A stretch of 34,294 bases of DNA from Syntrophobacterales bacterium GWC2_56_13 (GTDB taxonomy: Bacteria; Desulfobacterota; Syntrophia; Syntrophales; UBA5619): NCBI GenBank assembly GCA_001830835.1, contig MICJ01000002.1, positions 1-34,294 of the forward strand. The letters run 5' to 3'. Below the pieces are notes generated by a model that was given only the letters and a program-made list of their open reading frames with translations, had not been told where the DNA came from and ran no database searches. The position numbers and the translations under genes are program-made. Positions 23,222 to 26,042 of this stretch are shown piece after piece (positions within the stretch are counted from its first letter, which is position 1; each line of letters starts with the position of its first letter).

Positions 23222-24289
23222 ATGGGGCTGAAGGTCAGAGGCGGGAAAAGGCTCCCCGGGGAGGAGATCGAAAAGGTGCTGATCCGGGGGACGAACTGGA
23301 TCGGTGACGTCGTGATGACCCTCCCCGCCGTCGCCTCCGTGCGAAAAACCTGGCCGGGCGCGCGGATCTTTGTCCTCGCGAAGCCCTGGGTCGCCGAGAT
23401 CTACCGCCTCTCCCCGGATGTGGACGAGGTCATCCCCTTTGCGGAGCCGGGGCGTCATACCGGCGTCATGGGAAAATGGCGCCTGGCCAGGGAACTCCGC
23501 GGGCACGGCTTCGATTGCACCATCATCCTCCAGAACGCGATCGAGGCGGCGATCCTCGCGCGGCTCGCCGGCATCCCCATCCGCGCCGGTTACAACTCCG
23601 ACGGCCGGGGGCTGCTCCTCACCCACTCGGTCCGACGGACGAGAACGATCCGGCAGATACACCAGATCGACTACTACCTGGAGATGGTCCGGGCGCTCGG
23701 CTGCAAGCCCGCCGGGCGCGATGTCCGCCTCTGGCCCGGGAAAGATTACGACGGCCTGGCCGGACAACTTTTCACCCGTTTCGGCATCGACGGCGACCGC
23801 CCCCTGGTTGGCATCGCACCGGGGGCCGCCTACGGTCCGGCGAAAAAGTGGTTCCCGGAGCGGTTCGCCGCCGTCGCCGACCACCTGATCGAGGATGCCG
23901 GCGCGCAGGGCCTTCTCTTCGGGAGCGCCGGCGACCGGGAGAGCACGGCGGAGGTGGGGAAAAACGCCCGCCACCCCCTGATCGATATCGCCGGGAAGAC
24001 GAATCTGAAGGAGGCAATCGCCCTGATCGCCCGCTGCCGGATTTTCGTCTCCAACGATTCCGGCCTGATGCATGTCGCCGGGGCGCTCGGGATCCCCACG
24101 ATCGCCATCTTCGGCTCGACGAATCCCGTGACGACGTCACCCGTGGGGGAAAAGAGCGTCGTCATCCACCATGACGTCGATTGCAGCCCCTGCCTGAAGC
24201 CGGTCTGCCCGACCGATTTCCGCTGCATGGACCTGATCGGCGTGGAAGAGGTCTATACCGCGGCACGGAAGCTCATGGAGAGTCGATGA
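23222..24289 (+). CDS. waaF: ADP-heptose:LPS heptosyltransferase II
   Basis: KVLIRGTNWIGDVVMTLPAVASVRKTWPGARIFVL...GIAPGAAYGPAKKWFPERFAAVADHL...NDSGLMHVAGALGIPTIAIFGSTNP. Confidence 0.93.
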   Translation: MGLKVRGGKRLPGEEIEKVLIRGTNWIGDVVMTLPAVASVRKTWPGARIFVLAKPWVAEIYRLSPDVDEVIPFAEPGRHTGVMGKWRLARELRGHGFDCTIILQNAIEAAILARLAGIPIRAGYNSDGRGLLLTHSVRRTRTIRQIHQIDYYLEMVRALGCKPAGRDVRLWPGKDYDGLAGQLFTRFGIDGDRPLVGIAPGAAYGPAKKWFPERFAAVADHLIEDAGAQGLLFGSAGDRESTAEVGKNARHPLIDIAGKTNLKEAIALIARCRIFVSNDSGLMHVAGALGIPTIAIFGSTNPVTTSPVGEKSVVIHHDVDCSPCLKPVCPTDFRCMDLIGVEEVYTAARKLMESR

Positions 24290-24951
24290 GAGAAGGAAAG
24301 AGGCAGGCGGCCGTCTTCCTGGACCGCGACGGGACGATCAACGAGGAGGTGGGATATCTCGACCGGATCGAGAAACTCCGGCTGATCCCCGGCGCCGCCG
24401 AGGCGATCCGTCTGATCAACGAAAGTGGGATGAAAGCCATCGTCGTAACCAACCAGTCCGGCGTCGCCCGGGGGATGTTCGACGAGGACTTCGTTCATCA
24501 AGTTAATACGCGCCTTCGGGAGATGCTTCGGGCGGAAGGGGCTGCTATCGACGGCCTCTACTTCTGCCCCCACCACCCAACGGAGGGCCTGGGGGATTAC
24601 CTTCGGACCTGCGACTGCCGGAAGCCGGCGCCGGGGCTCCTGCTTCGAGCGGCAGAGGAGCTCCGGCTTGATCTCGCCCGCTCTTATATGGTAGGGGACA
24701 CGCTGAAGGACATCGAGGCGGGGGTCAGGGCCGGGGCGCAGGGCATCCTCGTCCGGACCGGATATGGCGAGGAGGCCGCCGCTGAACTGGTCCCGGATGA
24801 AGAACCACGGAAGAATGGGGACATGATGCCGCATCGTGTCCCCATCGAGAAAGCCGGCACCCAAGGGGAGACGGCAATCGTCCGACCTGTCCACATCACC
24901 GGAGACATCCTCGATGCCGTAAGATGGCTCCTGAAGGATCGGAAAACGTGA
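24286..24951 (+). CDS. gmhB: D-glycero-D-manno-heptose 1,7-bisphosphate 7-phosphatase
   Basis: AAVFLDRDGTINEEVGYL...VVTNQSGVARGMF...YFCPHHPTEGLGDYLRTCDCRKPAPGLLLRA...YMVGDTLKDIEAG; start overlaps the waaF stop. Confidence 0.94.
   Translation: MREGKRQAAVFLDRDGTINEEVGYLDRIEKLRLIPGAAEAIRLINESGMKAIVVTNQSGVARGMFDEDFVHQVNTRLREMLRAEGAAIDGLYFCPHHPTEGLGDYLRTCDCRKPAPGLLLRAAEELRLDLARSYMVGDTLKDIEAGVRAGAQGILVRTGYGEEAAAELVPDEEPRKNGDMMPHRVPIEKAGTQGETAIVRPVHITGDILDAVRWLLKDRKT
24815..24845. repeat. 31-bp near-perfect inverted repeat within gmhB
   Basis: ATGGGGACATGATGC-C-GCATCGTGTCCCCAT; the only non-Watson-Crick pair is T-G (24824/24836). Confidence 0.9.
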
Positions 24952-26042
24952 ACATCCTGATCGTCAAACTGAGCGCCATCGGCGATGTCATTCACACCCT
25001 ACCGGCGCTGGCCGCCCTGCGGAGGTGCTACCCCGTTGCGGACATCACCTGGGTCGTGGAGGAGGCCTCCGCCGACCTGCTCGCCGGTCATCCCGCGCTG
25101 AACCGGGTCATCGTCTCCCGCCGGAAAACCTGGATGAAAGAGATCCGACGGGGAAGGATCGCAGCCCCCCTCAAGGAAATGCATGCATTTTTCAAGGCCC
25201 TGCGCAGCCGCCCCTACGACCTCGTCATCGACTTCCACGGCCTGCTCAAGAGCGCCGTGATCGTCGCCGCGAGTAGAGGCCGGCGGAAGCTCGGCTACGA
25301 CAGCATGCAGGAGTTCTCCGGCCTGTTCTACGACGAAAAGATCCCCGAGGAGATGGGGAAGCACGCCGTGGACCGCTACCTCGACTTCGTCCGCCATCTC
25401 GCCGGAGGTCTGGATGGACGGAATGCCGCTTGCCCAAAGGGGCCGCCGGAGTTCACCATCACCGTCGATGAACAGGAGCGCCGGCGCGTGGCGGCGCTCC
25501 TGGACGAACACGCGGAGATCTTGCTCCCGGCAAAGACGGATCGTCCGGGCGAAGCGGAGAGGGGAAAATGTTTCGTGGCCATCAATCCCGTCGCCTTCTG
25601 GGAGACGAAACTCTGGGAGGAAGAGAAGTTCGCCGAACTCTGCGACCATATCCGGGTAGAGCTGGGGATCGGCGTGGTCCTGACGGCGGGGGAAGCCGGT
25701 CCACTCGACCGGATCCGCTCGCGGATGAAAACGGAGGCCGTCAACCTCGGCGGCAGAACGACGCTCCGGGAACTGGCCTGTCTCTACCGGCAGGCTGTCC
25801 TCCTCGTCACAACCGATTCAGGCCCCATGCACCTCGCCGCGGCAATGGGTACGCCGGTTGTCGCCCTCTTCGGGCCGACCGATCCCGCCCGGACAGGCCC
25901 TTACGGCCCAGGCCACCGGATCATCCGGAGGGAATTGCCCTGCATGCCCTGCTTCCGGAAACATTGTGAAGATCCCCGGTGCATGACGGAAATTTCGGTG
26001 AATGAGGTTTTTTCGGCGGTAAAGGAAATGATCGGGAAATGA
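24948..26042 (+). CDS. waaC: ADP-heptose:LPS heptosyltransferase I
   Basis: GTG start overlapping the gmhB stop; NILIVKLSAIGDVIHTLPALAALRRCYPVADITWVVEEAS...DFHGLLKSAVI...VTTDSGPMHLAAAMGTPVVALFGPTDPARTGPYG. Confidence 0.94.
   Translation: MNILIVKLSAIGDVIHTLPALAALRRCYPVADITWVVEEASADLLAGHPALNRVIVSRRKTWMKEIRRGRIAAPLKEMHAFFKALRSRPYDLVIDFHGLLKSAVIVAASRGRRKLGYDSMQEFSGLFYDEKIPEEMGKHAVDRYLDFVRHLAGGLDGRNAACPKGPPEFTITVDEQERRRVAALLDEHAEILLPAKTDRPGEAERGKCFVAINPVAFWETKLWEEEKFAELCDHIRVELGIGVVLTAGEAGPLDRIRSRMKTEAVNLGGRTTLRELACLYRQAVLLVTTDSGPMHLAAAMGTPVVALFGPTDPARTGPYGPGHRIIRRELPCMPCFRKHCEDPRCMTEISVNEVFSAVKEMIGK

Follow-up and report, generated by a model that had tools for sequence, protein, structure and literature searches.

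The gmhB gene of Syntrophobacterales bacterium GWC2_56_13 raises the question of how a hairpin-forming palindrome came to lie, in frame, within the coding sequence of an enzyme. The window analysed here, a stretch of 34,294 nt, opens contig C2 of a 2.6 Mb genome in 119 contigs, whose near relatives include Syntrophaceae MAGs. As an earlier note on this DNA had reported, the self-complementary stretch (Table 1) contains a single T.G mismatch, which becomes a G-U pair in RNA. The corresponding pattern with 8-bp arms matched at a single place in the window and in none of 100 shuffles; the palindrome is not a product of chance. Read single-stranded, the hairpin is GGGGACATGATGCCGCATCGTGTCCCC; the top-strand ssDNA hairpin reaches -13.2 kcal/mol (z = -5.5), and the stretch folds strongly as RNA as well. 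Its 27-nt core encodes GDMMPHRVP, residues 178-186 of GmhB, and is neighboured by GAAGAAT on the left and ATCGAGA on the right, with AT/AT as the only outer arm pair. With a probability of roughly 0.8, it represents a mobile palindrome, non-autonomous and REP-like, with G-rich ends (GGGGACA...TGTCCCC), inserted in frame in an unconserved linker and tolerated there as a passenger of nine residues.

Table 1. Coordinates of the gmhB palindrome and its surroundings, in positions of the window.
Feature	Position	Strand	Remarks
gmhB, D-glycero-D-manno-heptose 1,7-bisphosphate 7-phosphatase	24286..24951	+	221 aa, stop included; start ATG 24286, stop TGA 24949-24951
Self-complementary stretch	24815..24845	.	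ATGGGGACATGATGC-C-GCATCGTGTCCCCAT, in frame within gmhB; full 31 nt with flanking AT/AT pair
27-bp palindromic repeat core	24817..24843	.	GGGGACATGATGC-C-GCATCGTGTCCCC; asymmetric T.G / central C form
Native variable linker and conserved RP	24844..24888	+	IEKAGTQGETAIVRP; outside the inserted element; aligns with the G004, G006, G014, and G016 linkers
waaC-like heptosyltransferase gene	24948..26042	+	GTG start overlaps gmhB stop (GTGA)

The insertion had been described as 27 extra residues (81 nt) in a protein expected to pass almost directly from EEP to ITGDILD. Comparison with gmhB orthologs revealed a smaller event. The compared interval measures 217 nt in the window's genome (G000) and in G013, which shares its insertion, versus 196 nt in the palindrome-free G004, G006, and G014, so that the net gain is 21 nt and not 81, or 7 residues and not 27, for a palindrome of 9 residues. 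These relatives are just 21 nt shorter, since most of the supposed extra residues belong to an ordinary linker of variable length. The expected passage overlooked both RPVH, which is conserved in nearly all family-level GmhB orthologs, and the linker before it, whose length between the conserved TGYG and RPVHI varies naturally among orthologs. The IEKAGTQGE tail corresponds in the alignment to residues of native linkers (GEKGQSS in G004, SGKAGARE in G016), and a mobile unit including IEKAG was rejected since native linker aligns there in G004, G006, and G016. The palindrome is absent from other orthologs; distant ones in particular, whose sharing of the segment would have counted against an insertion, lack it.

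GmhB residues 5-169 match NCBIfam models and the solved structures of E. coli GmhB. As the HAD core aligns to these structures up to residue 167, the insertion lies outside it, a placement taken from the alignment to solved GmhB structures and not from a single-sequence structure prediction (mean pLDDT 37), which was left unused. The palindrome would have landed in frame downstream of the HAD catalytic core of GmhB and ahead of its C-terminal segment, overwriting about 6 nt, and the peptide that it encodes would be tolerated in the linker as a near-neutral passenger.

The same kind of sequence is dispersed throughout the genome. Searching for GGGGACA-N6-36-TGTCCCC returned 85 palindromes and a reversed-pattern control none, and a 27-mer identical to the gmhB core is located at G000:C8:16148-16174. 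These results bear out the earlier proposal of a REP-like palindrome inserted without breaking the frame, against which a lack of related palindromes elsewhere in the genome would have spoken. They also dispose of the idea that an ordinary variable linker happens to be palindromic, which has virtually no probability left even if linker length among orthologs varies without any palindrome. Several arm types occur in the genome: GATTT.AAATC, which dominates, AYGATGC.GCATCRT, to which the gmhB copy belongs, GATCTATTTT, and GCTCCC; the YGA-armed subfamily numbers five copies. Among the relatives sampled, genomes of the neighbouring genus g2 hold 1-194 copies and the other genomes of g1, the genus of G000, hold 0-2. 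A scan of species genomes detected at least 118 stretches with a gmhB-type core, in Syntrophaceae/Syntrophales MAGs and in one MAG labelled Candidatus Poribacteria, and the asymmetric T.G / central C form was the commonest in a sample of Syntrophales copies, accounting for 34 of 52. In the Poribacteria-labelled MAG, assigned to another phylum, L083 and other JACRIR01 loci contain the same 27-bp palindrome, almost always with longer outer arms. The repeat letters themselves, used as a literature query, gave unrelated matches only.

Copies are found in frame in other proteins too. Twenty candidate palindrome-containing ORFs were scanned with Pfam, several of which have no Pfam support and may be spurious. 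Among the Pfam-supported cases, copies lie between the N- and C-terminal domains of mutL, between HHH and BRCT of ligA, between the two domains of a UPF0261 protein, and, in glycogen debranching enzyme, both between GDE_N and GDE_C and inside GDE_C; further supported hosts are GH57, HemN-like, alanine-racemase-like, and radical-SAM/DUF2344 proteins. Judged by these predicted domain boundaries, in-frame palindromes are often situated in inter-domain linkers. Palindromes with other arms are also present in ORFs with Kdo-transferase and polysaccharide-epimerase domains (L008:1501-1525, at G000:C2:59918, and L014:725 and L014:1829, on G000:C21).

Anchored comparisons of filled and empty sites showed that these palindromes do not simply add their own length. 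Net gains were +21 nt in gmhB, +18 in radical SAM, +18 in ligA, +12 in GH57, +21, +15, and +15 in glycogen debranching enzyme (two sites, one of them occupied in two genomes), +24 in a nucleotide-sugar-dehydrogenase-like gene (L188, a host called by eye and possibly truncated), and +3 in UPF0261, or +6 versus one relative. All net length changes measured at conserved coding sites are multiples of three, an effect of selection for frame, and all are below 27, so native bases were lost at each site. Intergenic sites gave other net values, and in a RelE-like gene, a family judged by eye, the palindrome adds 17 nt and breaks the frame (L121:1026 vs L297/L298). Native bases may have been lost in the insertion itself or by later change; clean flanks at L188 and L114 favour the insertion event. 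No target duplication was seen at the filled/empty sites compared. Replacement without target duplication is not textbook behaviour for a transposable element.

This replacement of native bases is among the observations that bring another process into view, in which replication template switching, along with ectopic repair between hairpin repeats, is mainly responsible for the spread and alteration of the palindromes, a few native bases being overwritten per event, and the transposases are merely relatives of the original ends. Of 123 distinct copies (L083-L200), 69 have a copy-specific self-complementary outer flank of at least 4 bp, against 5 expected from re-paired flanks; among loci with known titles, such arms accompany 28/31 copies from the Poribacteria MAG and 19/52 from Syntrophales. 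At one site compared between G012 and G013 (L194:1455 vs L304), the order flank-palindrome-right has changed to flank-inverted palindrome-inverted flank, in L098:3568 vs L299 the core is inverted and an arm matches the opposite flank, and the pairs L116:5872 vs L086 and L102:6777 vs L184 differ by an inverted flank copy plus half a palindrome. Inverted cores and inverted flank copies are described as signatures of template switching at quasipalindromes in the abstracts of two studies (PMC7202029, PMC8794818). Going by the aligned alleles, template switching has later remodelled the copies, as their individual arms and inverted cores show. That the outer arms always represent inverted native flank was rejected as a general rule, because most of both arms at L188 is new.

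All of this, together with the failure to find a cognate transposase in the genomes searched, suits template switching as the main mode of spread, which is possible but on balance improbable: it accounts for arms and inversions at existing sites, whereas more than 100 unrelated sites need long-range transfer, and there are Y1 transposase genes with related palindromes at their ends. A bolder variant, that the palindromes overwrite 3-24 nt by hairpin-seeded template switching with arms drawn partly from the flanks, as a transposase-independent or hybrid system that rewrites inter-domain linkers family-wide and in a second phylum, is speculative and rather doubtful.

In the likelier account, that of a mobile palindrome, a TIR-associated Y1/HUH transposase would act in trans. 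Such enzymes were named TIRYTs (TIR-associated tyrosine transposases), with GGGGWSAS ends, by Di Nocera et al. (PMC3733652), and most of them were placed in TnpA-Y1 subclass 2.1 by Quentin et al. (PMC6006769); such ends are the mark of the group (PMC3733652, PMC6006769). In the gmhB copy, the top strand reads GGGGACAT, which misses the last position, so that the fit is confined to the bottom strand, GGGGACAC. Genes for Y1 transposases (PF01797), which the earlier note had suggested seeking, do exist: of 30 Y1_Tnp loci examined in relatives, 9 have the gene enclosed by GGGGAC inverted repeats 18 nt or longer, and at several others G-rich repeats of a related kind are present. Seven loci (L066, L206, L213, L216, L060, L072, and L081) contain Y1 genes within GGGGAC-type terminal inverted repeats and form TIRtron-like units. 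Ends of sister type recur in solo palindromes of this genome: GGGGACAGCTCCCTATTTT adjoins the Y1 gene of L206 and also belongs to the solo palindrome located at G000:C31:5617. The sister ends AGCTCCC, ATAATACC, CCATACTA, and GGTTCTA flank Y1 genes as inverted repeats.

In view of the GGGGAC inverted repeats around Y1 genes of relatives, mobilisation by such an enzyme is likely. A transposase gene with GGGGACAYGATGC (AYGATGC) ends was found in none of ten palindrome-bearing genomes, a search with its long end in 155 order-level genomes returned no such gene, and G007, a MAG about 85% complete with 100 palindromes, gave no Y1_Tnp match. In the absence of an AYGATGC-ended Y1 gene from these searches, the action of a TIRYT in trans is inferred. 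The family shares with TIRYT repeats G-rich ends, fitting GGGGWSAS on the bottom strand only, its dispersed solo copies and dimers, and the GGGGAC inverted repeats at Y1_Tnp genes of relatives; it differs in that a solo copy is a compact palindrome of just 27 bp and that AYGATGC arms surround none of the Y1 genes found. On these sequence likenesses the palindrome family is probably TIRYT-related.

Comparison with other repeat systems narrows the assignment. Like REP/RAYT repeats, the palindromes are short, many-copy hairpins (on the genome-wide count and its empty control given above), mostly intergenic, sometimes in frame, and present in DNA-repair hosts, here mutL and ligA. Membership of the classical REP/RAYT class is nevertheless unsupported, because the gmhB hairpin has neither a GTAG nor a CGTC tag at its foot; the listed copies share no common tag, and their G-rich ends suggest TIRYT affinity instead. 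With Rickettsia palindromic elements (RPEs) the family has in common the in-frame insertion of palindromic repeats in protein genes, here gmhB and the other hosts with Pfam-supported frames, and a peptide placed outside the catalytic core, but the sequence is another, the element is shorter than RPE-1, and it has no CGTC tag such as RPE-4 and RPE-6 carry. Most of what is known of protein-coding palindromic repeats comes from Rickettsia and from a small number of genomes rich in REPs, and the Syntrophaceae lineage, unlike Rickettsia, is not obligate intracellular. A MITE (70-300 bp, terminal inverted repeats, target duplication) is not matched by a 27-bp element with replacement at filled/empty sites. 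Quasipalindrome template-switch mutations, as far as the abstracts of PMC7202029 and PMC8794818 describe them, share with the present case, at palindromes already in place, mutually complementary arms, inverted cores, and inverted copies of the flank; what sets the present case apart is that the process affects a family of dispersed repeats and takes place within linkers that code for protein.

How the allele reached this lineage can be approached through its neighbours. Identity between G000 and G013 is 87.9% near the palindrome and 79.9% in the gmhB core (Fisher p = 0.01, uncorrected for several comparisons), and between G000 and G007 87.4% and 78.8%, respectively (p = 0.007, uncorrected); palindrome-free relatives show no such rise near the palindrome. 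In the waaC tree, G000 joins its own genus g1 and G014 (98/96), apart from G013, G007, and G012. The simplest reading of these modest statistics is that the 3' part of gmhB has probably recombined, and the allele would have arrived partly by homologous recombination of that part with a relative in the neighbouring genus.

After arrival, the gmhB site has been unstable yet stays in frame. The gene of G007 has gained a further half palindrome in frame (+24 nt, MMPHRVPAMMPHRVP), in that of G012 the 48 nt separating two runs of GGGG have been deleted, and that of G016 carries CATCTCCCC, possibly the decayed right half of a palindrome. In G019, an ordinary GmhB C-terminus and stop are followed by a palindrome and a relic gmhB end; this locus, L229 (G019:C151), looks near 522-780 like two gmhB alleles joined at the palindrome by recombination. 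The deletion in G012 and the lengthening in G007 speak against recruitment of the hairpin as an RNA element tuning translation or stability of the gmhB-waaC mRNA. Such a role is suggested by a strong RNA hairpin in a coding region and by the GTGA overlap, through which translation of both genes is probably coupled, but it is very unlikely, since many relatives with the same gene order lack the hairpin, its end lies about 105 nt upstream of the waaC GTG, and the same element is present in many unrelated genes.

The palindrome family illustrates well how repeat DNA can rewrite the linkers of proteins. The kind of element is not new; most interesting about the family are the replacement of native bases and the template switching. 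Alleles that are filled, empty, doubled, or deleted at one and the same site offer a direct view of the entry of repeats into genes, and related genomes show which linkers tolerate palindromes and how hairpins are remodelled by template switching. The marker peptides GDMMPHRVP and GHDAASCP flag such inserts in predicted proteins.
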